Source: Streptomyces sp. Je 1-332
Lineage (GTDB): Bacteria; Actinomycetota; Actinomycetes; Streptomycetales; Streptomycetaceae
Direction of reading: 5' to 3'
DNA length: 64,000 bases
Assembly (NCBI RefSeq): GCF_040730185.1
Contig: NZ_CP160402.1
Span: 2,976,001 to 3,040,000 of the forward strand
Positions 1-45,013 of the stretch are shown piece after piece (positions within the stretch are counted from its first letter, which is position 1; each line of letters starts with the position of its first letter). The notes under the pieces are model-generated. The model was not told where the DNA came from and searched no databases. It was given only the letters and a program-made list of their open reading frames with translations. Both the position numbers and the translations under genes were made by a program.

Positions 1-18169
<18,169 letters not shown>

Positions 18170-18173
<4 letters not shown>

Positions 18174-27100: not shown

Positions 27101-28027
27101 GACGTTGACCATCGCGCTGGGGGTGGCGATCGAGGCACGGCCCGTGCGGCCCGCGAGGGGCAACGCGAAGGTGAAGTCGGTCCGGCCCGTCATCCGGTGG
27201 AAGAACGCGGCGGTGGCGGCCATGGCGAGGGCGGGCCACTGCGCGTCGAGCCGCTCGGCCAGGCCGGTGAGGCCGCGTACCAGCGCCGGAGGCAGGGTGA
27301 TCACGCGGCGCAACCGGCTGTGGGTACTGCCTGCCTGACGCCCCGCCAGCGACAGCGGGTCCGGCAGGTCGGCGAAGGCCGCGAGCCAGTGGGTGCGGTC
27401 CCGGCCGTGGCGGCGCGACGAAGGGTAGGCGGCCTCGTCGGCGACGACCTCGTCGAGGGTGGCGAAGCTGGTCGTCCGGGGCTGCTCACCGGCGAGGAGC
27501 GCGGTGTAGATGGCGGCGACGCGGGCCGCGTACACGGAGTGGCCGAAGCCGTCCAGGACCGCGTGGTGGTAGCGGTGGAAGTAGAAGGACCGGTCGTCGG
27601 CCAGGGTCAGCAGCGTCTGGGCGCTCAGCGGTGCGCGGGAGAGGTCGAAGGGCTCCGCCATCTGCTCGCGCATCCACGCGTGGGCCGCCTTCTCCGGCTC
27701 CGCCTCGTCCCGCAGGTCGACCAGGCGCAGCGGCCAGGGGTCGAGCGGCTCGACGACCTGCCAGAGACCTCCTTCGCTCCCCTCGCCCTCGTTGCCCGCG
27801 GCGCCCCCGTCACCGTCGCCGTCCTCCGAGAAGTACGACCGCAGCGCCTCCGTCTCCTCGACGGCGCGCCGCACAGCGCGGTCGAGGGTGCCCACGTCGA
27901 CGGGACCGCTGATCTCGTAGTAGCCGCCGCAGTTGTAGAGAGGGCTGTCCGGCTGAAGTTGCTGGGCGACCCAGATGCCCAGTTGGGCGGCGGCGACCGG
28001 TCGACGGACCATACGGACGTCGGACAT
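18170..28027 (-). CDS. Three-module NRPS with starter C domain: Cs-A-T, C-(truncated A)-T, C-A-T-E
   Basis: First NRPS of the line, 3,285 aa. Domains: starter C (1-445, HHAVLDG) that should join the fatty acyl group from the free ACP; A1 (463-956) with YTSGSTG near 611; T1 (Ser997); C2 (HHIAGDG near 1181); an A remnant (1510-1612); T2 (Ser1651); C3 (HHIAGDG near 1835); A3 (2160-2680); T3 with GGDS (Ser2729); E domain (2780-3210) with HHLVVDG, EGHGRE and VGWFTNLYP motifs. My A1 code is DLTKIGAVN (Asp) and A3 is DFQLFGIAV, close to known pipecolate codes. Expected product: acyl-Asp-X-D-Pip, with X loaded in trans because module 2 has no working A domain. The C-terminal 30 residues are very acidic (DE/F-rich) and probably form a docking tail for the next NRPS. 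A GAGAGGA-like ribosome site precedes the ATG. Confidence 0.93.
23190..23500 (-). other. Degenerate adenylation domain of module 2
   Basis: Between C2 and T2 of the first NRPS only about 100 residues remain where a roughly 500-residue A domain is expected. What survives matches the A6 region ([17 protein letters not shown]) and an altered A7 ([10 protein letters not shown], normally YRTGD). The ATP-binding loop, the A4/A5 pocket and the A10 lysine are absent. The reading frame is intact and T2 keeps its phosphopantetheine Ser1651, so this looks like a fixed deletion in a module loaded in trans, not a broken gene. Confidence 0.9.
24843..26726 (-). repeat. Asp A-T cassette, copy 1 (module 1)
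   Basis: About 1.9 kb from the start of the A domain through the T domain into the start of the next C domain. It is nearly identical to 5491-7374, with about a dozen scattered differences by eye, and similar to 11818-13640. The match stops abruptly on both sides. The A-domain core uses many T-ending codons (GCT, GTT, GGT, GAT) that are rare in the flanking C domains. Confidence 0.88.
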
Positions 28028-28151: not shown

Positions 28152-28433
28152 TCAGGCGTTCTGGGCGAGTTCCTCGACCAGGGCCTTGCTGAGTCCGTCG
28201 ATGGTCGGGTTGTGCCACATGACGGTGGGGTCGAGGGAGATGTCGAGGTGGTCCTCCAGCTCGGCGGCGACCGCGAGGACGTACAGGGAGTCGAGTCCGT
28301 AGTCGGTGAGCGGCACGCTCGTGTCGATGGTGTCGGGGGTCCGCTCCAGGTGGGTGGCGATGCAGTCGGTCAGCCAGAGGCTGAGGCCCTCGGCGGTGTG
28401 CTCGGTGGGCTGCTCGACGCCGGTTTCCGGCAT
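28152..28433 (-). CDS. Free acyl carrier protein for lipid initiation
   Basis: Stand-alone carrier protein of 93 aa. The phosphopantetheine site is in YGLDSLYVL, with the Ser in the usual DSL setting, followed by the second and third helices of the ACP fold. It should receive the activated fatty acid from the acyl-AMP ligase encoded upstream and hand it to the starter C domain of the NRPS encoded just downstream (124 nt away). An AAGGAG ribosome site lies 8 nt before the ATG. Paired FAAL and ACP genes ahead of the first NRPS are the standard lipoinitiation set of daptomycin- and friulimicin-type lipopeptides. Confidence 0.92.
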   Translation of the reverse strand: MPETGVEQPTEHTAEGLSLWLTDCIATHLERTPDTIDTSVPLTDYGLDSLYVLAVAAELEDHLDISLDPTVMWHNPTIDGLSKALVEELAQNA

Positions 28434-28496: not shown

Positions 28497-29438
28497 TCAG
28501 GGGCGGCCTGCGAACGGCCGGTCGGGAAGCTGACGTGCGGTGAGGCCGAAGGACCGGGAGGTCTCGTACCGGCAGGTCAGCTCCGCGTACAGGCGCTCCT
28601 CGACCGTGCCCGACGGCTGCGTGACGCGCCGCGCGGGCGCCGTGACGGCGCGACCGGGAGCGGCGTCGAGGAGCTCCGGGTCGGTGAGCTCCGCGACGGT
28701 GGGTGCGGCCAGGAAGGCGTCGAGGTCGACCGCCTCCGCCAGAGAGGCCGCTCCCTCGGCCTCTCCCGCACCGGCACCGGCACCGGCGCCGGCACCGGCG
28801 CCCACGCCCGCTGCCGTGTCCGGCGCGAAGAGCACCCGTTGGGTCTGGGCCAACAGCACCTGGAACACGGCCTGTTCGCCCTCTCTGATGTAGAAGCGCG
28901 AGCCCATCACCACGGACAGCCGGTCCATCGCACCCTGCAGGACGCGCGGCCCGAGGCTGCTCGCCGGCCGTGGGTCTTTGCCGCGCACGGCAAGGGTCGT
29001 GAGGGTGTCGCACAGGAGAAGGTCGGCGTAGGCACCGGCGAGCATGGAGCGGAGGTAGCGGATGTCGATGGCCGCGGCGCCGTAGAGACGGCGTGCGCGC
29101 AGGTGGCGCACGGTGATGCGGAGCGCGGAGTCCAGGGCCCCGGCCGCCGCGCCGATACGCACCGCGCCGGCGGTCTCCCCGGTCACGGGGCAGTCGGCGG
29201 CGACCAGGGGAGACCTGCGGCTCAGGGCGCGCAGGGCGTGCAGCAGTTCCTCGGAGCCGCGGTGTCCGACGGCGAGGCCGGTGTCGGCGAGGAGCGCGGC
29301 GCCCTCCGGGAGCGGCCGTCCGGCCTCGCTCGCGGCGAGGACGGCGCCGAAGCCGAGGGGGTTCGTCGCGTCGTAGGGGTCGCCGAGGCGTTCCTCGACG
29401 GTGTCGGCGAGGCCGGTGGCCGCGGTGGCCGTGGTCAT
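28497..29438 (-). CDS. Short acyl-CoA dehydrogenase-like protein
   Basis: Protein of 313 aa, shorter than the usual 380 or so of the acyl-CoA dehydrogenase family. The recognisable part is the C-terminal helical bundle (residues 85-190, RRLYGAAAIDIRYLRSMLAGAYADLLL-like pattern); a normal N-terminal helical domain and beta domain are not clear. Residues near 225-237 form a (GA)n linker encoded by a 6-nt repeat. ATGA overlap with the larger dehydrogenase encoded upstream suggests coupled translation and perhaps a heteromeric enzyme. Likely role: unsaturation of the carrier-bound or CoA-bound acyl chain with its partner. Whether it is catalytic alone is uncertain. Confidence 0.75.
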   Translation of the reverse strand: MTTATAATGLADTVEERLGDPYDATNPLGFGAVLAASEAGRPLPEGAALLADTGLAVGHRGSEELLHALRALSRRSPLVAADCPVTGETAGAVRIGAAAGALDSALRITVRHLRARRLYGAAAIDIRYLRSMLAGAYADLLLCDTLTTLAVRGKDPRPASSLGPRVLQGAMDRLSVVMGSRFYIREGEQAVFQVLLAQTQRVLFAPDTAAGVGAGAGAGAGAGAGEAEGAASLAEAVDLDAFLAAPTVAELTDPELLDAAPGRAVTAPARRVTQPSGTVEERLYAELTCRYETSRSFGLTARQLPDRPFAGRP

Positions 29439-31267
29439 GAGGCGCTCGCTTCCTGGGTGTCGGGAGCCGGTCCCGGTCGGTGGCCGCCGGGGGCCGCGGC
29501 CAGCCGGTCGAGCAGGGAGTACGGCGCGCCGGGCCCGGCGGGGCGGGCGAGCAGCGCGTCGGCGAGCTCGCCGTGGACGCGGCGTTCCGTCTCCTCGACG
29601 TGCTCGCCGAGGTCGGTGAGCGCCTTGACCAGGCAGCCGCGCAGCCAGGTGTCGTCCGCGCCGGCACCCGCGTGCTCCGCGCCGCGCAGCCACAGGTGCA
29701 GCGCGGCGGCCGCCCCGAAGCACAGCTCGAACCGCTCGGCGAGTTCGAAGCCGCGCACAGGCACGGCGCGCGGCGCGAACCGTGCCCCCGCCATGTCCTC
29801 GTGCAGCCGGCCGGCGGTGGCGTGCAGCCGCGCGGCGAGGTCGGCGAGGCCCTCGGAGGCGAGGCCCTCGTCCGCGAGGTGCCGGACCTCGGCGGCGGCC
29901 ACGGGCAGGCTCGCGACGACGGAGGCGCCACTGCTGGAGATCAGATTGAGGGAGTCGGTCCTGAACGGCCCCGGCGCGGTCCGCGCGGTGGTCGCGGCGG
30001 CGAGGCCCGCCGCGTCCCAGCGGCCCTTGCGGTAGGCGCGGGCCAGGCGGGGGAACTGGTCGATCAGGGCGTTGCGGTTGACGAGGCTGCTGCCGTCGAA
30101 GATGCCGATGATGCGGTGGTCCCGCTCCACCTTGGCGAACTCCCCGTGCGGGTCACCGGGCCCCGCGAGGCCGTGCGGGCCGAGCAGGTGGAACAGCCGG
30201 GCGATGAGATCGTCGACGTACGCGGGCACCGAGGCCTTGGCGACGGCGGAGACGACGCTCATCTCCCCCGTGAGGGCGTGCACGGAACGTACCGCCACCA
30301 CGCTCGTCGCCTCGGCGAGCAGCAGGGTCGCGGTCGCCTCACCCAGTTCGGCGCGTACGAGGGGTAGTTCGGCCAGGCTCCGGCCGCTCTGTGTGCGGGT
30401 GCGGGCCGCGAACCGCGCGGCGAGACCCAGGGCGTGGTCGCCCGCGCCGAGGGACATGGCGACGCATCCGGTGCGGGTCACGTGCAGCGACTTGAGGATG
30501 ATCTCGACGCCCTGCCCCGTCCTGCCGACGAGCGCTCCGTCGGCCAGCGGCGCGTCATGGAAGGCGATGCCTCCGATGGCCGCGCCGCGGATGCCGTACG
30601 TGGGCACCTTCGGCAGGTCGGTGTACTGGTCGGGCGCCAGTTGCTCCTTGTCGACGAGGAAGAGGCTGAAGCCGAGCGGGCCGCCGGCCTCGTCGGTGCG
30701 GGCGAGCACGGTGACCAGATCGGCCCTGGTGACGTTGTTGATCAGCCACTTCTCACCGGAGAGCCGCAGCCCCCCGGAGACGCCCGAGGACCCGGCGGTT
30801 CCCTCGGTCCGCGTCCCGACGACCTCGCCGGCCAGCAGGTCGCTGCCGTGGTGGCGTTCGGTCAGGGCGCACGACACGACCGCCCCGTCGATGATCCGCT
30901 GCCCGAGGCGCGCGGCCTGACCGGAGTCGCCCGCGATCCAGGTGGACACGGCGCCCAGGTAGGTCTTGCCGTGGGCGGCCGCGACGGTCAGGTCGACGCG
31001 TGAGACTCCCCGCAGGAGCTGCATGACGACACTGAAGTCGTCCAGGGCGCCGCCGTGTTCGACCGGGACGTAATAGCGGGGCAGGCCGAACGCGTCGAGC
31101 ACCCGGCACGCCTCGTCGGGGAAGGTCTCCGCACGGTCGAGCGCGGCGAGGGCCTCGACGGAGAACGGCTCCCCGGGCCCGGTGAGCCCGTCGAGCAGCG
31201 CCGTGAGCTCCTCGGCCGGGTCGGCCCCCGCCAGGTGCGCCGAACCGGGGCGAGCGGCCGTGGTCAT
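29435..31267 (-). CDS. Acyl-CoA dehydrogenase (acyl chain desaturation)
   Basis: Flavoprotein-type acyl-CoA dehydrogenase of 610 aa. The N-terminal helical domain runs to about 130. The FAD/substrate beta domain has SCALTERHHGSDL, the typical LTE-GSD signature, and GEKWLINN. A C-terminal helical domain follows, and the tail of about 200 residues is longer than in standard family members. It lies between the acyl-AMP ligase (ATGA overlap) and the short dehydrogenase (ATGA overlap). Friulimicin- and ramoplanin-type clusters also carry dehydrogenase pairs that introduce double bonds into the lipid tail. I infer an alpha,beta- or beta,gamma-unsaturated acyl group here; the exact position cannot be read from sequence. 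Confidence 0.85.
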   Translation of the reverse strand: MTTAARPGSAHLAGADPAEELTALLDGLTGPGEPFSVEALAALDRAETFPDEACRVLDAFGLPRYYVPVEHGGALDDFSVVMQLLRGVSRVDLTVAAAHGKTYLGAVSTWIAGDSGQAARLGQRIIDGAVVSCALTERHHGSDLLAGEVVGTRTEGTAGSSGVSGGLRLSGEKWLINNVTRADLVTVLARTDEAGGPLGFSLFLVDKEQLAPDQYTDLPKVPTYGIRGAAIGGIAFHDAPLADGALVGRTGQGVEIILKSLHVTRTGCVAMSLGAGDHALGLAARFAARTRTQSGRSLAELPLVRAELGEATATLLLAEATSVVAVRSVHALTGEMSVVSAVAKASVPAYVDDLIARLFHLLGPHGLAGPGDPHGEFAKVERDHRIIGIFDGSSLVNRNALIDQFPRLARAYRKGRWDAAGLAAATTARTAPGPFRTDSLNLISSSGASVVASLPVAAAEVRHLADEGLASEGLADLAARLHATAGRLHEDMAGARFAPRAVPVRGFELAERFELCFGAAAALHLWLRGAEHAGAGADDTWLRGCLVKALTDLGEHVEETERRVHGELADALLARPAGPGAPYSLLDRLAAAPGGHRPGPAPDTQEASAS

Positions 31268-33048
31268 GCCGAGGCCCCGGCGACCGCGGGCGCGACGGGC
31301 TCGCTGAGGAGGTTCTGCTCGTAGTCGGCGTAGGTGGGCTCCAGTGCCCCGGAGCGGAACAGCTCCCGCATCGCCGAGCGCTGGATCTTCCCGCTGGTGG
31401 TCCTGCGCACACCGCCGGGCCGCAGCAGCAGGACCGCGCCGACGGGGGCGCCGAACTCGCGGGCCACGGTGAGCCGCATCCCGGAGGCGAGTTCACGCAG
31501 CCGCTCGGGGTCCTTGATGCCGCGCACCTCGTGCGTGACGACGAGCACCTCGTCGCCGCCCCGCGCGCCCTGTCCGGGCACGGCGAAACAGGCACCGACG
31601 AGGTTTCCCAACTCCGGCTGCTGGGAGCGCAGTTCGTGCTCGATGTCCTGGGGGTAGAGATTGCGGCCGCGCAGGTTCAGTACGTCCTTGATGCGGCCGG
31701 TGATGTAGAGGTCGCCCTCGTGCAGGGCGCCGAGGTCGCCGGTGCGGAGGTAGCCGGTGTCGCCGTCGGCCGTGGTGGCACGGAACTCCGCCTCGTTGGT
31801 CGCGTCGCGGTTCCAGTAGCCCTGGCCGATGACGTCACCGCGCAGCCAGATCTCGCCGACGCCCCCGTCGGGCAGCACGCGGCGGGTGTCCGGCTCGACG
31901 ATGCGTACCTGCGCGCCGGTCGGCGGCCCGCAGTTGACCACCTCGCGGCCGGGCTCGCCGGGGGCGGCGACGCGGAACTCGTTGAGTTCGAGCTGCTCGG
32001 CACTGACGGTGCGGGCGCTCGGCGGGGTGTCGACGGCACCGGAGACGAAGAGGGTCGCCTCGGCCATGCCATAGCTGGGCGCGAGGGTCTCGGCGCGCAG
32101 GCCGGCCCCGGCGAAGCGCGCGTGGAAGCGCTCGAGGACGGCGGCACGCACCGGCTCCGAGCCGTCGACGGCGTGCCGCAGACGGGACAGGTCGAGGCCT
32201 TCCATGTGCGCGTCGGTGACGCGCCGCGTGCAGACCTCGTACGCGAAGTCGGGCGCGGCCGAGAAGAAGACATCGAAGCGGTCGATCATGCGCAGCCACA
32301 GGTGGGGGCGCTTGAGGAAGGTGCTGGGGCTCATCAGGACGGTGGCGGAGCCGAGCATCAGTGGCGGGATCATCAGGCCCATCAGGCCCATGTCGTGGAA
32401 GTGCGGGATCCAGCCGCCGCCGCGGGTGGTGGCGTCGAGCCCGAGCCGCCGCGCGATGTTGTCGGTGTTGTGCAGCAGATTGCCGTGGCTGATCATCACA
32501 CCCTTGGGATCGCCGGTGGACCCCGATGTGTACTGCAGGACGGCGAGCGTGTCGTGGTCGGCGTGCGGCGCTTCCCAGCCGTCCGGGCCCGGCCCGGCGC
32601 CGTCGTCGGTGGCCAGCAGGGGGAGCCGGCCGAGCCCCTCCTCGGTGATCCACTCCTCGACGGCCGGACGGGTACCGGTGTCGGTGAGGATCGCCGTGGC
32701 GCCCGCGTCGTCCGCGATGCGCTTCACCCGGTACCGCTCGTGGCGGTAGCGGCCGGGCAGGGAGGAGGGAACGGCGACGGCGCCGGCGTACAGGCAGCCG
32801 AAGAACGCGGTCAGAAAGGCGAGTCCGGCCGGGTACAGGAGCACCACCCGGTCACCGGGGGCGACGTGTTCCCGCAGCCGCGTCGCGATGGAGCGTGCCT
32901 CGCGGTCCAGCTCGGCGTACGTCAGCCACCGCGCTCCGTCCTCCTGATCGGGGTCGGTCACGAACACGGCCGCTTGCTGCTCCGCCCGCTCTTCGGCATG
33001 CCGCCGAAGTATCGCGACGACATTGGGGGCGGTGACTGTCTCCGCCAT
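31264..33048 (-). CDS. Fatty acyl-AMP ligase (FAAL)
   Basis: Adenylate-forming enzyme of 594 aa that activates a fatty acid as acyl-AMP and loads it on the free ACP. Motifs: LQYTSGSTGDPKGVM (P-loop), GGWIPHFHDMGLMG (typical of FAALs and not of CoA ligases), SYGMAEATLF, YLRTGDLG, and KDVLNLRGRNLYPQDIE near the C-terminal hinge. I chose the ATG at 33048 (MAETVTAP). An upstream ATG at 33090 in the same frame has no ribosome site. It is the first gene of the minus-strand biosynthetic operon, divergent from the glutamate mutase genes. Confidence 0.92.
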   Translation of the reverse strand: MAETVTAPNVVAILRRHAEERAEQQAAVFVTDPDQEDGARWLTYAELDREARSIATRLREHVAPGDRVVLLYPAGLAFLTAFFGCLYAGAVAVPSSLPGRYRHERYRVKRIADDAGATAILTDTGTRPAVEEWITEEGLGRLPLLATDDGAGPGPDGWEAPHADHDTLAVLQYTSGSTGDPKGVMISHGNLLHNTDNIARRLGLDATTRGGGWIPHFHDMGLMGLMIPPLMLGSATVLMSPSTFLKRPHLWLRMIDRFDVFFSAAPDFAYEVCTRRVTDAHMEGLDLSRLRHAVDGSEPVRAAVLERFHARFAGAGLRAETLAPSYGMAEATLFVSGAVDTPPSARTVSAEQLELNEFRVAAPGEPGREVVNCGPPTGAQVRIVEPDTRRVLPDGGVGEIWLRGDVIGQGYWNRDATNEAEFRATTADGDTGYLRTGDLGALHEGDLYITGRIKDVLNLRGRNLYPQDIEHELRSQQPELGNLVGACFAVPGQGARGGDEVLVVTHEVRGIKDPERLRELASGMRLTVAREFGAPVGAVLLLRPGGVRRTTSGKIQRSAMRELFRSGALEPTYADYEQNLLSEPVAPAVAGASA

Positions 33049-33355
33049 ATTCGAAGCCCTGCCCTTCGCGTTCTCGAATTTCCTGTTCATGCACCGGTCC
33101 GGCACCGTGAGACTTTCTACAGGGGGGTTCCTGAGCCGGGAAGCCGCATGACAGCAAACTGCACCACGTACCCCCGCCCCCGGCCGCAACCGGGTCAAAC
33201 CACCCGTACCGCATGGCCATTGAGGCTTCACGAGGCCAGTACCGGCCAGCGGGAACAGCGTTCGGGCGGCCTCGACGCCAGTAAAGTCGGAGCCCTGCCA
33301 CCTTTCTGGCACCCCCCTCCTTCTCGTGCCCCCTTTTCGTGAATCCGGGATTCCC
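33049..33355. promoter_or_regulatory. Divergent intergenic region between FAAL and glutamate mutase genes
   Basis: About 300 nt without a coding region, so both biosynthetic operons must start from here. I see no convincing -35/-10 pair, operator repeat or B12 riboswitch fold, although the plus-strand genes encode a B12 enzyme. A small TGCCA/TGGCA hairpin lies near 33297-33313. Confidence 0.5.
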
Positions 33356-33796
33356 ATGCATTCGATACAAGGCACCGAATCTCCCTCCGTTCTTGTGACG
33401 GGAACGTCCTCCGACTCGCACACCTGGAACCTCGTCTTCCTGCAATTGCTGCTCGAGGAAATGGGCCACACGGTCGCGAATCTCGGACCCTGCCCGCCCG
33501 ACGAGCTCGTGGTGCGGAGCGCCGTCGACGTACAGCCGGGCCTGATCGTCGTCAGCAGCGTCAACGGCCACGGCTTCAACGACGGTCTGCGCCTGATCCG
33601 TGCTCTGCGCGCCCGTCCCGAGCTGGCCCTGACCACCGTCGTCATCGGCGGCAAACTGAGCACCGACGGGCTGCGCAACGTCGGCCTCGTGCGCCAGTTG
33701 ACCGCGGCCGGCTACGACCGGGTGTTCGACGACGGCAGCCTCGACGAGTTCCAGGTACTGGCCGCCGCCCGGGTGCCCGCCCGAGCGGTGTCGTGA
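33356..33796 (+). CDS. glmS: Glutamate mutase small subunit (B12-binding)
   Basis: Cobalamin-binding component of 146 aa. Glutamate mutase rearranges L-glutamate to (2S,3S)-3-methylaspartate, the precursor for the MeAsp residue. The B12 base-off motif reads SDSHTWN, so the usual Gly of DxHxxG is Asn here; the S-x-L region is SSVNGHG and the later GG is IGGKL. I favour ATG 33356 (MHSIQG), because the fold starts at VLVTG. A GTG at 33326 is an in-frame alternative and neither has a clear ribosome site. It overlaps the large subunit gene by GTGA. Confidence 0.9.
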   Translation: MHSIQGTESPSVLVTGTSSDSHTWNLVFLQLLLEEMGHTVANLGPCPPDELVVRSAVDVQPGLIVVSSVNGHGFNDGLRLIRALRARPELALTTVVIGGKLSTDGLRNVGLVRQLTAAGYDRVFDDGSLDEFQVLAAARVPARAVS

Positions 33797-35049
33797 CGAC
33801 GGAGCCCTTGCGCCCGGTGTCCTTCGGCGACTTCGTGTCGCGGGCCCACGCGCGCGGCACACTCGTGGTGCAGCCGCGGATGGGCTTCAGCGATCCGCGG
33901 CTGATGCGCGAGGGGCTGGCCGCGACGCGTGCCGCCGACGCCCTCACCGTGGGCACCCTGACCCTCGACAGCTACACCCGCGTGCGGGACCTGGCCGCGG
34001 CGCGCAAGGCCGTCGACGAGGGTGTCCCCCTCAACGGCTATCCGCTCTGCACGCACCCCGCCGCCACCACCCACACACTCCTCGACGGCGTCCTCGACGC
34101 CGATTTCCCCGTCCAGGTCCGGCACGGCTCCCCCCGCCCCGAGCACATCGTGGCCCGGCTGCTCTCGCTGGGACTCGACGCCACCGAGGGCGGCCCGGTG
34201 TCTTACTGCCTGCCCTACGGCCGAACCAGCCTCGCCGACGCCGTGGCCGCGTGGCGTTCGGGCTGCACGATGCTCGCCGAGGCCACCACCACCGCGACCC
34301 CCCACCTGGAGAGCTTCGGCGGCTGCATGCTCGGGCAGCTGTGCCCGCCCTCGATGCTCATCGCCATCAGCGCGCTCGAAGGCGCCTTCTTCGCCCAACA
34401 CGGCCTGCTCAGCGTGTCCTTGAGCTACGCCCAACAGACGAGCCACGAGCAGGACCGCGAGGCGGTGGCCGCGCTGCGACGGCTGGCGGGCGAACTCCTG
34501 CCCGGCGTCGACTGGCACATCGTGCTCTACGCCTACATGGGCATGTACCCGCACTCGCGCCCCGGCGCACTGAGTCTGCTCTCGGCGGCGGCCCGCCTGG
34601 CCGTCGAGTCCGGCGCCGCCCGCCTGATCGTCAAGACCGCGGCCGAGGCCCACCACATCCCGAAGATCGCGGACAACGTGGAGGCCCTGGAGACGGCGGC
34701 GGCAGCCGCCGCGCGGGCCGCACCGCTGCCCGACATCGGCGACTCCGAGGTGTACGAGGAGGCCCGCGCCCTCGTCCACACCGTCCTCGGCCTGCACGAG
34801 GACATCGGTGAGGCGCTGCTCGCCGCCTTCCGCCGCGGACTGCTCGACATTCCCTTCTGTCTGCATCCCGACAACGCCGGGCGGACCAGGAGCTTCATCG
34901 ACGGCGACGGCCGGCTGCGCTGGTCGGACACCGGGGCGCTGCCCATCGGCGGTGCGCGGGCACCGTCCCGCCGCTCGCTGACGTCCGGCGACCTGCTCGC
35001 CGCGCTCTCCCATGTGCAGCGGACCTACGACTCCGGAGGAACCCCATGA
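33793..35049 (+). CDS. glmE: Glutamate mutase large (epsilon) subunit
   Basis: Catalytic TIM-barrel subunit of 418 aa, somewhat shorter than clostridial GlmE (about 480). Family features include VQPRMGFSDP near the N-terminus, PLNGYPLCTHP, VRHGSPRP and GGPVSYCLPYGR, which fit the glutamate and radical-control sites. With the small subunit it forms adenosylcobalamin-dependent glutamate mutase. The paired genes sit in the lipopeptide cluster opposite the FAAL. The Asp-like but non-identical code of module 4 is the natural consumer of its product. Its stop overlaps the permease start (ATGA). Confidence 0.92.
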   Translation: MTTEPLRPVSFGDFVSRAHARGTLVVQPRMGFSDPRLMREGLAATRAADALTVGTLTLDSYTRVRDLAAARKAVDEGVPLNGYPLCTHPAATTHTLLDGVLDADFPVQVRHGSPRPEHIVARLLSLGLDATEGGPVSYCLPYGRTSLADAVAAWRSGCTMLAEATTTATPHLESFGGCMLGQLCPPSMLIAISALEGAFFAQHGLLSVSLSYAQQTSHEQDREAVAALRRLAGELLPGVDWHIVLYAYMGMYPHSRPGALSLLSAAARLAVESGAARLIVKTAAEAHHIPKIADNVEALETAAAAAARAAPLPDIGDSEVYEEARALVHTVLGLHEDIGEALLAAFRRGLLDIPFCLHPDNAGRTRSFIDGDGRLRWSDTGALPIGGARAPSRRSLTSGDLLAALSHVQRTYDSGGTP

Positions 35050-37010: not shown

Positions 37011-37925
37011 TCAGTCGAAGCTCAGCGTGCGGTACACCGTGACGTTGCCCGCCAGTTCCTGGCACGCCTGCGCCGCCGCGGCCAGCTGGTTGTGGCAGTC
37101 CGGCGCCGCGGTGTCCAGGAGGACGCCGAGCGTCGTGCCGCTGTGCCCGACGACCACGCCGAGACCCCCCACCTCACGGCAGATGTCGATCATCGGCTCC
37201 AATGACCGTTTGTGGCGCAGGACTTGGTTCATCCGCGCGCTCGCGGTCGCGACCGCGCCGACCTCGGCCAGGTCACGGCGGGCCACGGCGCCCGAGACGC
37301 GGTCGAGGAGGCGTGCGTACTCCCGCCGGTCGGCCGTGGTGAACGGCTTGGGGATGCTGTTGAAGTCGACGGTGTCCACCGCTCCGCCCTCGTCGATGCT
37401 CACGACGGCCATCGAGGGCAGCGACCCGAGCTGGGCGCGCAGCCGCACGCTGCGGTGGTGGAAGGCGACGACGGACGGGTAGAGCACCCCGTCGGTGGGC
37501 TCGATCCTGGCGAGGTAGGACTCGATACGGCGCGGCGGCATCTCCTCGTCCAGGGCGTTGCCCACCGCCCGCGCGGTGGCCACCAGGTCCGCGGACGAGC
37601 TGGCGAGCCCCTTGCCCTCGGGGATCATGCTGTCGATGCGCAGCACTCCGCCGGCGGGCCGCGCCACATCCTCCATGATCATGGCCGTGAGTCGCTTGGC
37701 CTTCTTCTTGTGCGGCGGCCAGACCTCCAGGGTGTCGGAGTCCGGGTCCAGTTCGAACCTGGCCATGGCCCAGCGGGCGACGGGCAGGGTGACGAGGAAG
37801 TCCCCGTCCTCCTCGGGCAGTACGCCCTGGAGCAGTTCCCCGAAGGTCCCGAAGGCCGCACTGACCCCGGTCGCCCCGACGCGGCGGTAACCTGCGCCGG
37901 GTGCGAGCGTGCCGATCGTCCTCAC
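37011..37925 (-). CDS. GHMP kinase, L-threonine kinase (PduX-like)
   Basis: Kinase of 304 aa. The GHMP ATP loop is PEGKGLASSSAD, with the N-terminal substrate region GTFGELLQG and the C-terminal GGLGVVVGHSGTTLG. PduX-type enzymes make O-phospho-L-threonine. In friulimicin and pacidamycin clusters a threonine kinase works with a cysteine-synthase-like and an argininosuccinate-lyase-like enzyme to make 2,3-diaminobutyrate; all three types are in this operon. The GTG start at 37925 overlaps the stop of the A-T-TE gene (GTGA). It is the last gene before the terminator. Confidence 0.87.
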   Translation of the reverse strand: MRTIGTLAPGAGYRRVGATGVSAAFGTFGELLQGVLPEEDGDFLVTLPVARWAMARFELDPDSDTLEVWPPHKKKAKRLTAMIMEDVARPAGGVLRIDSMIPEGKGLASSSADLVATARAVGNALDEEMPPRRIESYLARIEPTDGVLYPSVVAFHHRSVRLRAQLGSLPSMAVVSIDEGGAVDTVDFNSIPKPFTTADRREYARLLDRVSGAVARRDLAEVGAVATASARMNQVLRHKRSLEPMIDICREVGGLGVVVGHSGTTLGVLLDTAAPDCHNQLAAAAQACQELAGNVTVYRTLSFD

Positions 37926-40900
37926 GCCGTTCCTCCTCGTATCAGCGCGGCGGTCTCCTGCGCGCGGGTGCTCACGAAATAGTGGCCGCCCTCGGCGAGA
38001 ACGTGCAGCGTGACCAGGTCGGACACCACCTTCCAGTCGCCGTAGGTGTCGGCGAATCCCGCCGTCGACGGGTCGTCCTGCGCGAGGACGACCTCCACCG
38101 GGGCGCCGATGCCGTACGGCTCGATGTCCTCGCGGATGCGGATCAGCCGGTTGTTCGTGGTGAGCACGTCGTGCCGGTATGCGCGGCCCACCACGTCGGC
38201 GCGCTCGGGCCGCAGCTCGTCCAGCTCCACGTAGGCGTTGTCGGCGCGCAGCCGGGACAGCAGGGCCCGGTTGTCGGCCGTCTCCACCTCGGCCGTCTCG
38301 GCGCGCAATGCCTCGGCGTCCTCGAGGAGCAGGGCGCCGATGAAGACCCGCTCGGCGGGCCGGCCCCTGTCCTGAAGGCGTCGCGCCGTCTCCAGGGCGG
38401 TGACGGCGCCCGCGCAGTGGCCCCACAGCAGGACCGGCGTGTTCACGCGCTCGCCGATCTCGTCCGCGACCCGGTCCGCGATCTCGTCGATGCCCGCGAG
38501 CGGCTCGTCGTCGCCCGCCAGGTCGTGGCCCGGCAGCTCGACGCCGAGGACGGCGATGCCGTCCCGCTCCAACGCCGCTGCGAGCGAGCGGAAGTTGACG
38601 GCGTTGCCGCCCGCGTACGGGAAGCAGACCAGTGTGTGGTGCGGGTTGCGGACGCCGGAGAGCGACTGCAGCAGGCCGGTGGTGCCGGCGGCGGCGCCGC
38701 CCGCGTTCTCGCGTTCGGCGAGTACCGCCGCGAGGTCGGAGAGGACCGGGTGTGCCACCAGGTCCTTGAGGGAGAGCGCCCGGTCCATGTTGACCAGGAG
38801 CCGCACCGCGGCGAGGGATGTGCCGCCGAGCTCGAAGAAGTTGTCGGCCCTGCCGATGCGTTCCAGGGGTGCGCCGAGGACCTCGGCCCACAGCATCGCC
38901 AGTCGCCGTTCGCCCGGCGTGTTCGGTGCGGCGTACGTCGCGCCGCCGTGGCCCAGGGTGCCCGCGAGGCGGATCAGGGCCTTCTTGTCGACCTTGCCGT
39001 TCTCGGTGAGGGGCAGCCGCTCCAGCTGGTGGAAGTAGGTGGGCACCATGTAGTCGGGCAGCAGTCCGGCGAGGAAGTCCCTGGCCCGCTCGGCGGGCAG
39101 CTCCTCGTTGCTGGCGAAGAACGCGACGAGGTTGCGCAGTTCGCCGGGTCCGCCGTCGATGACGACGGCCGCCTCGCGGATGCCCTCCAGGGTGAGCAGC
39201 TTGTTCTCGATCTCGCCGATCTCGATGCGGAAGCCGCGGATCTTGACCTGCTCGTCCCTGCGGCCGAGGTACTCGATGCGGCCCTCGGGCAGCCAGCGCC
39301 CGAAGTCGCCCGTGCGGTACATCCGGGTGTCGTCCCGGAACGGGTCGGGTACGAACGCCTGCCGGGTGCGCTCCTCGTCGTTGATGTAGCCGCGGCCCAC
39401 GGCGACCCCGGAGAAGGCGATCTCGCCCGGGGAGCCCAGCGGCGCGAGCCCCAGGTTCTCGTCGAGGATGTAGGTGTTGACGTTCCGCAGCGACCTGCCG
39501 ACGGTCACGAAGTCGCGCTCGGGCACGCCGTCCAGGACCTCGTGCATGGTGTCGTCGGACACCTCGGTCGCGCCGTAGGCGTTGACCAGCTTGATGTCGG
39601 GGAAGGCGGCGAACCAGCGCTGCACCAGGTCGTACTTGAGCGCCTCGCCGGTCACCGACAGGGTGTGCAGGGCGCCGAGCGGCCGCGGATGCTGTTCCAG
39701 GTGCGTGAGGAGCACCTCCAGGTACGAGGGGACGATCTGCGCGACGGTGACCGCGCCCTCGACGATCTCGTCCAGGAAGCCGCTGACGTCGAGCAGCAGC
39801 GCGGTGTCCACGATGCGTACGCTGCCGCCGGTGAGCAGCGGGGCCGCGAACTGCCACAAGGAGATGTCGAAGCACTGTGACGCGGTCTGGGTGACGACTT
39901 CGCCGGGTCCCTCCGCGATCTCCATGTCGTCGATCTTCATGTAGAGGTGGTTGAGCATGCCGACGTGCTCGCACAGGGCGCCCTTGGGGGCGCCGGTGGA
40001 GCCGGAGGTGAAGTAGATGTACGCGGCCTGCCCCGGGGCCACGGACACCCCGGGCGCCCCGGTGGAGACGCCGGACGCCTGGATCTCGGGCACGGAGAGC
40101 AGGACGGGCGGCGCGGGTACGGCGGCCGCCGCGTCCCGCATCAGGCCCGCGCTGCCGGGCTCGGTGAGCGCGAACCCGCAGGCACTGCGCTCCAGTTGGG
40201 CCGCGACGCGGTCGGCGGGGAAGTCGGGGCGCACCGGCAGATAGACGCCGCCCGCCTTGAGGACGCCGAGGGCTGCGGCGATCCAGTCGAGGGTGCGGTC
40301 CATGGCGACGGCGACCACGTCCTCGGTGCCGGCACCCGCGGTGAGGAGCGCGTGGGCGACACGGTTGGCGCGCTCGTCCAGCTCGCGGTACGTCAGGCGG
40401 GCGCTTGCGTGCACGGCGGCGACGGCGTCCGGAGCACTGCGCACCCGCTCTTCGAACAGGTCGACGAAGGTGCGCTCCCCCAGTTCGACCCGCGGGCCGG
40501 CAAGTCCGTGCAGCTGGGTCTCGACCTCGGGGGCGGAGAGCAGCTTCTGCCGGTGGTGCAGCTGGGCGGGGCCCGCCACGAGGTGCTGGAGCGCGGCCAG
40601 GTGGTAGCCGGCCAGACGGTGCGCGTACTCCTCGTTCAACTCGGCGCGGTCGTAGGCGACACCGAGGACGAGGCCGCCTCCGCTGTCCTGGGTGAAGCTG
40701 ACGCGCAGTACCTCACCTGGGGTTTTGCTTACGGCTTTGCTCACATCCGCACCTGCGGGATCGCCTGCGGCTTTGCTCATCGCGGCGCCCGCTTCGAGGC
40801 CGGACAGGTCGATCACGGCCTCGGGCGTCGCCTCGGCGGTGTGCGTGTCGGACAGGGCCCCGGCCGCGTGCGTCACGAGCTCCGCCCAGCTGGAGTCGTC

Positions 40901-41176
40901 GACGGCCAGGCGCAGCGGCGTGGCCGGGCGGCCCGCTTCGGCGACGTGCCCGATGAGCAGGCCCCGCTCGGCCGACACGCTCGCCAGGACCCTGGCGTGC
41001 GCGGCGAGGAGCAGTTCCCGCCGGGTCGCGCCCAGTTCGGCGGCGGTCCGGTCCAGGTCCCGCAGCAGTTCGTCGGGCAGTGGTGTCCGGTGCAGCCCGG
41101 TGCCCTCTTCGCGGGCGGTGGGCCAGGTCCACCGGGGAATTCTGGTGAAGGCCTGCTGTCCTGTCCTGTCTGTCAT
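37922..41176 (-). CDS. Free NRPS: half C domain, A, T and Cys-type thioesterase; probable in-trans loader for module 2
   Basis: Protein of 1,084 aa. Residues 1-230 resemble the C-terminal lobe of a condensation domain and lack HHxxxDG. A domain 235-735: YFTSGSTGAPKG, code DIWQSTADD, whose two acidic residues at the 330/331 positions would suit a basic amino acid such as DABA. T domain: GGTSL, Ser787. Alpha/beta-hydrolase domain about 820-1084: the nucleophile elbow is GHCAG with Cys921 in place of the usual Ser, and a His follows in EGGHYF. Cys enzymes of this fold (SyrC, CmaE) move aminoacyl groups between carrier proteins. Since module 2 lacks an A domain, I infer that this protein activates residue 2 and transfers it to T2 (Ser1651). 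ATGA and GTGA overlaps link it to the DABA genes. Confidence 0.88.
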   Translation of the reverse strand: MTDRTGQQAFTRIPRWTWPTAREEGTGLHRTPLPDELLRDLDRTAAELGATRRELLLAAHARVLASVSAERGLLIGHVAEAGRPATPLRLAVDDSSWAELVTHAAGALSDTHTAEATPEAVIDLSGLEAGAAMSKAAGDPAGADVSKAVSKTPGEVLRVSFTQDSGGGLVLGVAYDRAELNEEYAHRLAGYHLAALQHLVAGPAQLHHRQKLLSAPEVETQLHGLAGPRVELGERTFVDLFEERVRSAPDAVAAVHASARLTYRELDERANRVAHALLTAGAGTEDVVAVAMDRTLDWIAAALGVLKAGGVYLPVRPDFPADRVAAQLERSACGFALTEPGSAGLMRDAAAAVPAPPVLLSVPEIQASGVSTGAPGVSVAPGQAAYIYFTSGSTGAPKGALCEHVGMLNHLYMKIDDMEIAEGPGEVVTQTASQCFDISLWQFAAPLLTGGSVRIVDTALLLDVSGFLDEIVEGAVTVAQIVPSYLEVLLTHLEQHPRPLGALHTLSVTGEALKYDLVQRWFAAFPDIKLVNAYGATEVSDDTMHEVLDGVPERDFVTVGRSLRNVNTYILDENLGLAPLGSPGEIAFSGVAVGRGYINDEERTRQAFVPDPFRDDTRMYRTGDFGRWLPEGRIEYLGRRDEQVKIRGFRIEIGEIENKLLTLEGIREAAVVIDGGPGELRNLVAFFASNEELPAERARDFLAGLLPDYMVPTYFHQLERLPLTENGKVDKKALIRLAGTLGHGGATYAAPNTPGERRLAMLWAEVLGAPLERIGRADNFFELGGTSLAAVRLLVNMDRALSLKDLVAHPVLSDLAAVLAERENAGGAAAGTTGLLQSLSGVRNPHHTLVCFPYAGGNAVNFRSLAAALERDGIAVLGVELPGHDLAGDDEPLAGIDEIADRVADEIGERVNTPVLLWGHCAGAVTALETARRLQDRGRPAERVFIGALLLEDAEALRAETAEVETADNRALLSRLRADNAYVELDELRPERADVVGRAYRHDVLTTNNRLIRIREDIEPYGIGAPVEVVLAQDDPSTAGFADTYGDWKVVSDLVTLHVLAEGGHYFVSTRAQETAALIRGGTA

Positions 41177-42459
41177 CGTCCCCCGACCCCTTCGCTTTCC
41201 GATGCTTCGTGCGTCTGGTTCTCAAGCTCGATCCTGATCAGCCCAGCGGCGTCCAGCGCGTGCCGCTGTGCCTCGTCGCCGCTCGCCCCGGTGGCCACCA
41301 CGCAGCCCAGGCGGTCCTGGAACGAGTGCGTGATGCGCAGCGTCCTGCCGACCGTGGCGGTGCCCGTCGTGGCGGCCGTCACGACACCGGGTGCCTGGGC
41401 CGCCGCAGCGACTCCCTCGACGGCGGCGATGCGTCCCTCCCGGCCGTCGTCCTGCGCGAGGAGGAAGCGGATCGCCGCGTGGGACGCGCCGGGAGCGGCG
41501 GGCTGCGCGTCCTGGCCCGCCGCCTTGGCGATCACCTCGTCCACGAGGTCACGGCCGGTGGCGGCCCGCACCGCGACGGGGATCATGCCCCCCGCGAGGC
41601 GCGGGTTGACCTCGATGACCACGGGACCCTGGGCGGACATCCGCAGTTCGGTGTGGGCCGCGCCCCAGCCGAGGCCGAGGGCCGCGAGCGCCGCACGGGC
41701 CGTGTCACCGAGCGCGGCGACGGTGGCGGGAGCCACCGGCGCGGGCACGTCGTGCCCGGTCTCCACGAAGTACGGCTCGGGTCCGGTGTGTTTGCCGACG
41801 ACGGTGACAACGGTGTCGTCGAACGTCTCGACGGAGAACTCCGGCCCGACCACGGCTGCCTCGACCAGGATCCGCGAGGGCACCGGAGTGCCGCGCTCGT
41901 CCGTCGCCCGGCCGAGCAGCTCGCGGGCCCAGGCCTCGGTCTCCGCCGGGTCCCGGCACAGCTTCACGCCGACCGAGCCGGAGCCGCTGACCGGCTTGAG
42001 CACCACGGGGTGGCCGATGCCGGCGGCGGCCGCGACGGCCGCGTCCACCTCGCCGACCGCTTCGAAGCGGGGCACGGGAACGCCTGCCGCGGCGAGCGCC
42101 GCGCGCTGGACGTCCTTGGCCCGGCAGGCGGCGACGGCGTCACCGTCGGGTGCGGGCAGCCCCAGCTTGGCGGCGGTCCGCGCGGCGGTCGCCACGAAGT
42201 ACTCGGAGCTGGAGGCGATGCCCGCGAGGCCGGAGCCGTCGGCGAGCGCGGCACATCGCTCGTACACGGCGTCGGCGTCCGACGAGTCGAGCACCACGGT
42301 CTCCACGCCGTCCTCGGCGACGTACGGATACCGGCCCGGGTCCCGGGTCAGCAGCACAGGACGCAGTCCACGGGCGCGGGCGGCGGCGCAGAAGTCGCGC
42401 CCGGTACCGGTGGTGTTGCTCTCCAGAAACGCGAACCATCGCGGTCCGGTCGCGCTCAT
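41173..42459 (-). CDS. ATP-grasp carboxylate-amine ligase
   Basis: Protein of 428 aa with an ATP-grasp core: HPVVLKPVSGSGSVGVK for ATP binding, an ILVEAAVVGPEFSVE strand and VVIEVNPRLAGGMIP for the metal site. The C-terminal 90 residues resemble the small C-terminal domain of L-amino-acid ligases. It should join a carboxylate to an amine with ATP use. The simple three-enzyme DABA route does not need it, so its substrate is open: a protected DABA dipeptide, a tailoring amide or self-protection are all possible. ATGA overlaps with the lyase gene before it and the A-T-TE gene after it place it firmly in the operon. Confidence 0.82.
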   Translation of the reverse strand: MSATGPRWFAFLESNTTGTGRDFCAAARARGLRPVLLTRDPGRYPYVAEDGVETVVLDSSDADAVYERCAALADGSGLAGIASSSEYFVATAARTAAKLGLPAPDGDAVAACRAKDVQRAALAAAGVPVPRFEAVGEVDAAVAAAAGIGHPVVLKPVSGSGSVGVKLCRDPAETEAWARELLGRATDERGTPVPSRILVEAAVVGPEFSVETFDDTVVTVVGKHTGPEPYFVETGHDVPAPVAPATVAALGDTARAALAALGLGWGAAHTELRMSAQGPVVIEVNPRLAGGMIPVAVRAATGRDLVDEVIAKAAGQDAQPAAPGASHAAIRFLLAQDDGREGRIAAVEGVAAAAQAPGVVTAATTGTATVGRTLRITHSFQDRLGCVVATGASGDEAQRHALDAAGLIRIELENQTHEASESEGVGGR

Positions 42460-43943
42460 CGTCTCTCTCCCCTCGTCGCCCGGCGCGCCACGATGTCGCC
42501 GACGGCCGTGTCCAGTTGAAGCTCCGCGGCGCGCAGCCGGTCCCGGTGCGCGACGAGGCGTTCGCCGTGTGCGGCGAGCCGCTCGCGCAGGGTGTGGACC
42601 GTGTCCTCGCACGTGCCCGGGCCACCGCCGCGGTCATGGGCGTCGACCACGTCGGCCAGCGACGGGACCTCCGCGCTCACGTCGGCGGGCATCCCGTCGG
42701 GCAGGGTGATCTTCGTGAGTTCACTCTCGCCCGACTCGATGGCCTCGCGCACCGCCGCGCCCACGACGTGGTGGGCGGTGCGGAACGGAACGCCCTGGGT
42801 GACGAGGCGGTTGGCGATCACGGTGGCGGTCACGAAGCCCTCCCGCGCGCGCTGTGCCATCCGCTCGGACACCGGCCGGGCGCCGCTCACCAGGACCTGG
42901 GCGAGCAGCACGGAGTCGCGTACGGCCGCCAAGGCGGACCAGGCGCCGGAGACCGCTTCGGTGCCGACCTCGATGGAGTTGGTGAACGGGGTGGACTTCG
43001 TGGCCGACGCACAGGCCGTCCAGGCGCCGACGGCGTGGGCCGCCTTGGCCTTGACGTGCTCCAGGAGGAACGCGTTGCGCTTCTGCGGCATGGCCGAGCT
43101 GCCGCCCACGAGCCGCTCGGGGAACTCGATGAACCCGAACTCCTGCGTGCTCCACAGCTGGAGATCGGTGGCGAGCCTGCTCAGGGTCAGCCCCGCACCG
43201 GCGGCGGCGCCCAGGGCGCGCAGCACGGTGTCCCGGGCGGCCACGGCGTCCATCGCGTGCAGCGGAGGGCCGTCGAAGCCAAGCAGGGCGGCGGTGCGGG
43301 CAGGGTCGATGGGCAGGTCGGTGCCGGAGACGGCGCCCGCGCCCAGCGGGCAGCGGTCCAGCTCCTCCAGGGTCTGCCGCAGGGCGGTGATGTCGCGGTC
43401 GAGCGCGCTCGCGATGCCGGCCAGGTAGTAGCCGTAGCTGATCGGCATGGCCGGCTGAAAGTGCGTGTAGACGGGCATCGGCACGCCCCGGTGGGCGCGG
43501 GCGCGGGCGAGCAGGACGGCCTGCATGCGCTGCGTCTCGCCCAGGAGGTCGATGAGTTCACCGCGCAGCCGCATCGCGGTGATGGTCGCCTTGATGTCGT
43601 TGCGGGAGCGGCCGGTGTGCAGTTTGCCGCCGACCTCCGTACCCAGCTCGGCGACGAGATGACCCTCGTACATCAGATACAGGCCGCGCGGTGCGTCCAT
43701 CTCGTACAGCTCGGCGAACTCGTCGGCGCGCAGCCGGGTGATGCCGGCCAGGAGCGCGGCGGCTGCGTCCTCGGGCAGCAGTCCGCACTCGGTCAGCATG
43801 ACCACGTGTGCGAGGTCGATGGTGGTGGTGTGGTGCAGTTCGTCGCGGATCTCGGCGGGGCCCGGCGTCCCGTAGACGACGCGCCGCGTGCGCGCCCCGA
43901 GTGTGCGGGTGAGCCGGCCCGTCCCGGCCTCGGCGGCCGTCAT
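42456..43943 (-). CDS. Argininosuccinate lyase-like enzyme for 2,3-diaminobutyrate
   Basis: Protein of 495 aa of the fumarase/aspartase superfamily. Signatures: HTGRSRNDIKAT, YTHFQPAMPISYG, TEFGFIEFP-like region, and the GSSAMPQKRN loop that carries the catalytic Ser. Primary arginine biosynthesis enzymes share these, but the setting between a cysteine-synthase-like gene and an ATP-grasp gene indicates a pathway role. I infer that it removes fumarate from an aspartate adduct of phosphothreonine-derived aminocrotonate, releasing 2,3-diaminobutyrate. ATGA overlaps exist at both ends. Confidence 0.86.
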   Translation of the reverse strand: MTAAEAGTGRLTRTLGARTRRVVYGTPGPAEIRDELHHTTTIDLAHVVMLTECGLLPEDAAAALLAGITRLRADEFAELYEMDAPRGLYLMYEGHLVAELGTEVGGKLHTGRSRNDIKATITAMRLRGELIDLLGETQRMQAVLLARARAHRGVPMPVYTHFQPAMPISYGYYLAGIASALDRDITALRQTLEELDRCPLGAGAVSGTDLPIDPARTAALLGFDGPPLHAMDAVAARDTVLRALGAAAGAGLTLSRLATDLQLWSTQEFGFIEFPERLVGGSSAMPQKRNAFLLEHVKAKAAHAVGAWTACASATKSTPFTNSIEVGTEAVSGAWSALAAVRDSVLLAQVLVSGARPVSERMAQRAREGFVTATVIANRLVTQGVPFRTAHHVVGAAVREAIESGESELTKITLPDGMPADVSAEVPSLADVVDAHDRGGGPGTCEDTVHTLRERLAAHGERLVAHRDRLRAAELQLDTAVGDIVARRATRGERR

Positions 43944-45013
43944 GACCGGGCCGGTGCGGGCAGCGGCCGCGAGGAGCGGGGCACGGCGCCCGGCACGTCG
44001 TCGTAGGGGCGCCGGTCCCAGGCGAGCCGGGTCCAGCTGTCGCCCGCGTCCGCGAAGTCGGCGATCAGCGTGGGCTCTTGGGGCAGGGCGGGCAGGGTGT
44101 GGCCCTGCTCGGCGAGCCAGGCGTCGTCGTACACGGTCGCCTGGTAGCGGTAGCCCTCGTCGGGGAGCATGACCACGCACGTCCGGTCGGGGTTGCGCTC
44201 GGCCCACCACCGCGCGGCGAGGTAGGCGGCGCCGCTCGTGGGTCCCTGGAAGAGGGCGTGCCTGGCGTGCAGCGCGCGGGTGGAGGCGTAGGCCTCGGCC
44301 GCCGAGCACCAGTGCACCTCGTCGAAGACGGTGTGGTCGAGGTTGGCGGGCCACAGGCTGTTGCCGAGGCCGCGCAGCGAGCGCGGTCCGTCGGGCTGGC
44401 CGAACAGCACGCTGCGGTGCGTGTCGACGCCGATGGCGCGGGTGTGCGGGGTGACCTCGCGCAGGCCGCGCACGGTGCCGCACATGGAGCCGCCCGATCC
44501 GACAGGACCCACCACGCAGTCGACGCCGCCGAGCACCTTGGCGAGCTGCTGGGCGACCACTCCGTACGAACGCGGGTTGTCGGGGTTGGTGTACTGCTCG
44601 GGGCAGTACGAGGAGGGAAGTTCGGCGCGGATCTCGGCGAGCCTGCGCAGCCGGGCCTCCTGGAAGCCGCCGACGGGCGCGGGTTCCGGGCAGATCTCCA
44701 CCCGGGCGCCCAGGTCGGTGAGTCTGCGGTACAGGTTGGCGTCGATGGCCGGGTCGCTGACCAGGATCAGCTCCCGCTCCATCAGAGCGGCCTCCATCGC
44801 CAGGGCCAGCCCGAAGGTGCCCGACGTGGTCTCCACGATCACCGTGTCGTCCGTCAACTCACCGCGCTGGTCGGCGTGCTGGAGGATGTAGTGGGCGGGC
44901 AGCAGCTTCATCAGCGTGAAGGCCGCGCCGTACAGGTTGGGGGCCAGCCGGATGATGCGCGGCATCATCGTGGCCTCGGTGATCGAGTGGTACGCAGGCG
45001 TGGTTACCGCCAT
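43940..45013 (-). CDS. Cysteine synthase-like PLP enzyme (SbnA type) for 2,3-diaminobutyrate
   Basis: PLP-dependent beta-replacement enzyme of 357 aa. Lys in FTLMKLLPAHYIL is the likely Schiff-base residue; ETTSGTFGLALA corresponds to the TSGNTG substrate loop and GPVGSGGSMCG to the PLP phosphate loop. Relatives (SbnA, PacS-type) replace a phosphate on O-phospho-amino acids with an amine donor. Here O-phosphothreonine and aspartate are the probable partners, giving the adduct cleaved by the lyase encoded next. A GGGAG ribosome site precedes the ATG. Confidence 0.86.
   Translation of the reverse strand: MAVTTPAYHSITEATMMPRIIRLAPNLYGAAFTLMKLLPAHYILQHADQRGELTDDTVIVETTSGTFGLALAMEAALMERELILVSDPAIDANLYRRLTDLGARVEICPEPAPVGGFQEARLRRLAEIRAELPSSYCPEQYTNPDNPRSYGVVAQQLAKVLGGVDCVVGPVGSGGSMCGTVRGLREVTPHTRAIGVDTHRSVLFGQPDGPRSLRGLGNSLWPANLDHTVFDEVHWCSAAEAYASTRALHARHALFQGPTSGAAYLAARWWAERNPDRTCVVMLPDEGYRYQATVYDDAWLAEQGHTLPALPQEPTLIADFADAGDSWTRLAWDRRPYDDVPGAVPRSSRPLPAPARS

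Follow-up and report, generated by a model that had tools for sequence, protein, structure and literature searches.

Two proteins, PstA (friulimicin) and LpmA (laspartomycin), have been described as trans-acting ATTe tri-domains, made of an adenylation (A), a carrier (T) and a thioesterase (TE) domain, that interact with the condensation-carrier (C-T) module at position 2, and the same trans-loading mechanism is stated for malacidin (Baltz 2021, PMC9113097). By loading in trans, an assembly line gains a new building block without the rebuilding of a module. Here we analyze a 64,000-nucleotide stretch of Streptomyces sp. Je 1-332 (contig NZ_CP160402.1, positions 2,976,001 to 3,040,000; the window), where a gene cluster for a lipopeptide antibiotic encodes a protein of this type, here called the loader. 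Its features are as follows.

37922..41176, minus strand: PstA-type A-T-TE trans loader, 1084 aa, ATG start (open reading frame (ORF) reading, Pfam and homologue search)
40472..41134, minus strand: half condensation-like domain, residues 15-235, without HHxxxDG (motif scan and predicted model)
38993..40456, minus strand: A domain, residues 241-728, code DIWQSTADDK, on a position ruler that we presume correct (Pfam and code reading)
38723..38914, minus strand: carrier domain T0, with Ser787 at 38816-38818 (Pfam)
37949..38641, minus strand: TE domain, with Cys921 at 38414-38416, Asp1035 and His1065 (Pfam and alignment/structure comparison)

The Pfam matches are AMP-binding (241-597), AMP-binding_C (655-728), PP-binding (758-818) and Thioesterase (848-1075). 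The TE motif is GHCAG (residues 919-923), which contains Cys921, and the triad partners are Asp1035 and His1065. The N-terminal 235 or so residues look like the C-terminal half of a condensation domain: they form an ordered alpha/beta stretch in the predicted model, and PF00668 is precomputed for three homologues of the loader (P0058, P0120 and P0134; P, L and G numbers are our labels for proteins, loci and genomes). A motif scan found no HHxxxDG in this region, and there is no Pfam Condensation match at 0.001. The order of domains read by Pfam, with A, T (Ser787) and a Cys TE in one chain after half a C domain, agrees with an earlier sequence-only reading of this DNA.

The loader is 64% identical to an Actinoplanes friuliensis protein (P0044, which we take to be PstA, although its record does not carry that name), 66% over 87% to LpmA, and 55% to MlcA (malacidin). 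As judged by sequence and a tree, it is an ortholog of PstA, LpmA and MlcA. These three resemble it in domain order, in having an A-less C-T partner at position 2 and in cluster type, and they differ from it in sequence only. The GHCAG of the loader recurs unchanged in MlcA and in the protein from A. friuliensis. The record of LpmA covers 942 aa and its TE end is damaged, so that a nucleophile motif cannot be read there. The sequence-only reading had presented the fusion of activation, holding and transfer in one chain as a departure from known enzymes. As a novelty, a fused A-T-TE shuttle has to be rejected, because the trans ATTe proteins PstA and LpmA are already in print (PMC9113097). The sequence-only interpretation is partly supported: the loader belongs to a known type of trans loader with an A-less partner at position 2, and the fusion is not new. 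What is new here, on the alignments described below, is the variation between Cys, Gly and Ser at the loader nucleophile among the best-match homologues. Baltz (2021, PMC9113097) has 0 occurrences of the string 'cys' in its main text, and no paper on the nucleophile Cys of the loader family was recognized in the literature searched. Since the first reports on friulimicin and laspartomycin were outside that scope, we do not claim that the Cys is absent from print.

The predicted acceptor is encoded on the same strand.

18170..28027, minus strand: PstB-type nonribosomal peptide synthetase (NRPS), 3285 aa, C-A-T / C-T / C-A-T-C; its last C is probably an E domain
22958..23182, minus strand: acceptor carrier T2 of the A-less module, with Ser1651 at 23075-23077
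23231..23422, minus strand: relic of an A domain in module 2, residues 1536-1599, between C2 and T2

Position 2 of this trimodular NRPS is an A-less C-T, as the PstA/LpmA/MlcA type requires, and module 2 has no specificity code. The loader itself is the fourth gene in a run of five. If the starts are placed as they are here, neighbouring genes of the run overlap by 4 bases (the GTG start of the last gene, for example, overlaps the loader stop by 4 bases). In order, they encode a pyridoxal phosphate (PLP) enzyme, an argininosuccinate lyase-like protein, an ATP-grasp ligase, the loader and a GHMP kinase.

43940..45013, minus strand: PLP enzyme, best NCBIfam match SbnA (2,3-diaminopropionate biosynthesis), below its cut-off
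42456..43943, minus strand: argininosuccinate lyase-like protein, above the argH cut-off, also matching positions 406-887 of NF002563
41173..42459, minus strand: ATP-grasp ligase, matching positions 5-407 of NF002563, below the whole-length cut-off
37011..37925, minus strand: GHMP kinase, predicted threonine kinase of the 2,3-diaminobutyrate (DABA) route, with NCBIfam matches far below cut-offs

The lyase-like and ATP-grasp proteins each cover one part of NF002563 (890 positions), below its curated cut-off. We take the pathway of the PLP, lyase, ATP-grasp and kinase genes to be the DABA route. With roles that are predicted, the claim of the sequence-only reading that such genes lie beside the loader is borne out by the run.

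In the mechanism proposed, the A domain of the loader would activate DABA, which would be held as a thioester on Ser787 of T0. A relay, with a thioester on Cys921 as its likely intermediate, would then bring the aminoacyl group to the Ser1651 phosphopantetheine (T2) of the module without its own A domain. We give this reading a probability of roughly 0.57. The domain order, the A-less module 2 with its relic, the coupled five-gene run, the triad and the orthology to PstA, LpmA and MlcA can be read in the sequence itself; what we infer is which amino acid is loaded, that it is transferred and in which direction, and that Cys921 acts covalently.

The closest solved TE to that of the loader is ObiF1, both by sequence and by fold, and SulM is second by fold. 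Both are Cys TEs, and both have the triad Asp in the later (second) position, a feature shared by the loader TE. ObiF1 and SulM release a beta-lactone or beta-lactam product, whereas no product release would be expected from the loader. By description, PacP from pacidamycin is likened to it as an A-T-TE chain that passes a residue to another T, as proposed for the loader. CmaE, likened in the same way, shuttles between carriers but is a separate protein. SyrC reportedly also shuttles between carriers as a separate protein. LgnA (legonmycin) likewise takes an aminoacyl group from the carrier domain of one subunit to that of another, and both formation of a Thr-enzyme and transfer from T0 to T1 are reported for it (PMC8748450). 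It is a stand-alone type II TE with Ser77 that has been tested biochemically, whereas the window TE is fused and has Cys921; the loader is thus neither stand-alone nor Ser-based, as an LgnA-like type II TE (TEII) aminoacyltransferase is.

The nucleophile was compared in 136 distinct proteins, from three homologue searches of which the best 120 matches each were taken; these are best matches, and not all members of the family. At the position aligned to 921, 105 proteins have Cys, 16 have Gly and 13 have Ser; LpmA, the short record, has Asp, and one partial protein has a gap. Cys at 921 is therefore more than chance as judged from the alignment, in keeping with the earlier claim that the nucleophile residue is Cys and not Ser. 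Asp1034-Asp1035 and His1065 are kept in 105/105 Cys and 13/13 Ser rows, Ser787 in 135/136 (one gap) and Lys728 in all 136. Gly is the only non-nucleophilic residue found at 921 in a TE that reads as intact. Among the Gly rows, His1065 is kept in 7/16, being otherwise Pro (6) or Arg (3), and Asp1035 is missing in 1/16. At two loci the loader frame is split in the assembly: the nucleophile of L120 is unreadable, and for L104 the residue comes from a short ORF apart from the rest.

When the A-T part is placed on a tree (134 rows, the Asp and gap rows being dropped; quick search without a mixture model), the Gly label needs 9 changes, of which at least 8 are forced by well-supported branches, gain and loss of Gly being indistinguishable. 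With 118 rows and FastTree there are 7 changes, 6 of them forced. The change can be recent: the nucleophile codon is TGT in L105 and GGT in its close relative L109 (dS, the synonymous divergence, is 0.07-0.08), and AGT in L121. Residues changing together with Gly gave matches in a Fisher test, which could not reach significance in an independent-pairs test (8 pairs).

Several observations weigh against a covalent relay of DABA through Cys921. Gly stands at the nucleophile in 16/136 homologues with 9 label changes, and three Gly clusters keep an A-less acceptor, although two of them (L102 and L108) are close kin, which makes two lineages. The A code is identical in loaders of a type without the kinase (P0033 and P0037), and so does not distinguish DABA from 2,3-diaminopropionate (Dap). 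The relay of LgnA uses Ser and not Cys (PMC8748450), and the introduction of the same paper describes transfer in PacP (A-T-TE0) as spontaneous and its TE as reported to be without a typical triad. Since some close relatives have Gly, Cys is likely not indispensable across the family, and direct transthiolation on the TE scaffold is a live rival, and the main one. Because the Gly relatives persist, the Cys may be regarded as an accelerator: it probably makes faster a T-to-T transfer for which direct transthiolation on the TE scaffold can also serve. If the Gly pathways work, a covalent relay would not be compulsory family-wide. A wider version of this, in which Cys, Ser and Gly are interchangeable and repeatedly reached states of the TE and the Gly forms transfer directly between phosphopantetheines without a covalent intermediate, is tentative.

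In the main rival reading, the TE would be a non-covalent platform, which docks T0 and T2 and whose oxyanion hole promotes direct thiol-thioester exchange, with Cys921 an optional accelerator or unused. We regard this as rather unlikely for the loader, though as the most probable of the rivals. The Gly forms themselves, as the sole non-nucleophilic state in an intact-reading TE, speak for it, and so does the constraint on their TE domains. The divergence of the TE relative to A-T, for 14 Gly proteins against their nearest Cys relative, is 0.67-1.48, compared to a median of 1.43 for Cys-Cys nearest neighbours (10-90%: 1.02-1.82). The ratio of nonsynonymous to synonymous substitution rates (dN/dS) in the Gly-Gly pair L102/L108 is 0.27 in the TE and 0.27 in A-T, and in the Cys-Cys pair L092/L098 it is 0.29 in both. 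On the other side are the Cys majority with its Asp and His retained in 105/105, the loss of His in 9/16 Gly rows, as though catalysis were relaxed, and the recent Cys-Gly pair L105/L109, whose short branches give a dN/dS of 0.46 for the TE against 0.28 for A-T. For another three Cys-Gly pairs the TE lies a little above A-T (0.31-0.50, against 0.27-0.46), and nearest Gly-Gly pairs have TE/A-T ratios from 0.42 to 2.08, the highest being P0049/P0051. The loss of His and the L105/L109 pair are compatible with some relaxation. By these measures constraint on the TE persists where the nucleophile is gone, although there are hints of relaxation, and the idea that the Gly variants are decaying pseudo-domains is unsupported overall. 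Of 120 proteins, 109 have exactly the nine-letter A code DIWQSTADD; in the Gly class it is found in 9/14, the other five differing at one position.

The TE might instead be an editing enzyme, hydrolysing misloaded Thr or Ser from T0, with a transfer from T0 to T2 that either is spontaneous or has the C domain as its driver. This appears improbable, because the solved TE nearest to it is a Cys enzyme that forms rings, and the pocket of ObiF1 is reported to exclude water (PMC11298585). Moreover, one sub-clade that has both Gly and Cys loaders (5 Cys and 2 Gly loci) has its own separate Ser TEII gene (GHSMG, 7/7 loci read), so that editing is available there. A link between Gly and a separate TEII was considered and rejected, since the TEII occurs with both kinds of loader and none was recognized in the 78 kb around the Gly loader of G049, where there is a GHSMG hydrolase that by eye is unlike TEII and one GYSKG ORF.

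Loading of T2 by the A domain directly in trans, with T0 and the TE as remnants of an ancestral module, has a precedent in capreomycin, where an A-less module is served by the A domain of another module (PMC12400406). We consider it very improbable here, as the T0 serine is so widely kept and the TE is under purifying selection in the pairs measured. The relay via Cys921 is retained as the preferred reading for the window.

The surroundings of the loader were examined in 22 genomes, including the window. A C followed by a T without a full A domain is present in 17 (12 Cys, 2 Ser and 3 Gly). The other five are unresolved: G439 and G460 (Gly), G456 and G451 (Cys), and G037 (Ser). In G439 (S. varsoviensis, L152-L155) all five genes of the DABA cassette are present, the TE being of the Gly form, but the cassette stands apart: within the 80 kb fetched it has no NRPS domains downstream of the loader and one C-A-T about 33 kb away on the other side. 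The reading frames of G460 are fragmented. In G452 the A-less module and the loader are on different contigs, and in G446 the A-less module is at the edge of the stretch. A link of Gly to a restored A domain was also considered, and is not seen in any of the three readable Gly clusters (two lineages).

At 12 loci besides the window, the C-to-T stretch is 42-76 residues in six (in G438, one of these, a short piece from the beginning of the A domain is left). Three loci of the same type as the window have 124-147 residues, and another three, where a broken A domain can still be recognized, have 280-365. The series looks like stepwise decay of a cis A domain once trans loading had taken over. Within the family, the loader exists in natural forms with Cys, Ser or Gly, together with acceptor modules that have graded A-domain relics. 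Matched natural pairs could show whether an aminoacyl-transferring TE must act covalently, beyond what mutagenesis alone can do.

A locus was counted as a cassette locus if two or more of three genes (PLP, lyase and ATP-grasp) were present at a minimum of 50%, which gave 38 among 80 loci fetched (of 84 confirmed). All 27 with Cys also have the kinase. Of those with Gly, 4 have it and 1 does not; of those with Ser, 1 has it and 4 do not; and the single locus with an unreadable nucleophile has it. Cys is thus absent from 5/5 kinase-less loci, which are probably one clade and so no independent evidence linking kinase and nucleophile. These loci look like the laspartomycin type, which presumably has Dap and not DABA at position 2. 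For this reason DABA is the likely substrate in the window, as far as gene content can indicate. The specificity positions used for the loader code are those that we presume to apply.

Beyond the kinase, the cluster continues on the same strand with genes for fatty acyl-AMP ligase (FAAL)-like, acyl-CoA dehydrogenase, acyl carrier protein (ACP)-like and NRPS proteins, and with mutase-like subunits on the opposite strand.

31264..33678, minus strand: predicted FAAL (AMP-binding, Pfam), with a true start probably downstream of the listed TTG
29435..31267, minus strand: acyl-CoA dehydrogenase (Pfam)
28152..28433, minus strand: small ACP, predicted
33326..35049, plus strand: methylaspartate mutase subunits S and E-like, two ORFs, below curated cut-offs
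3..18173, minus strand: six-module NRPS, which runs off the window and is completed outside

FAAL, ACP (roles by domain and position) and acyl-CoA dehydrogenase are in the cluster, as in the PstA/LpmA/MlcA type. Using a ruler and assignments that we assume to hold, module 1 has an Asp-like specificity code, and the codes of the final two modules resemble those for Val and Pro. The pattern fits the amphomycin/friulimicin type as far as codes can tell. Module 9, in the six-module NRPS (A domain starting near window position 923 and running off the window), has the code DAFFWGEVFK, unlike DIWQSTADDK of the loader, and residue 9 may therefore not be DABA. The PstA/LpmA/MlcA type has a dimodular CAT-CAT-TE terminator; here the terminal NRPS, outside the window, reads C-A-T-C-A-T, and the TE model used did not detect a final TE, though one match extends to query residue 1010.

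Related proteins also occur away from the cassette. At 30 of the 42 fetched loci outside it there is an A-T-TE with Ser at the nucleophile (L110-L119, L122, L123, L125-L136, L138, L139, L143, L148, L150 and L151), with a T-only ORF nearby in 20/30; a gene for a PLP enzyme (about 30-35% identity) is also present in many. Eight loci (L140, L141, L142, L144-L147 and L149) have NRPS proteins ending in C-T-TE with a Cys TE (GHCVG, one GHCGG), which adjoin A-T proteins and in some cases also ATP-grasp genes.
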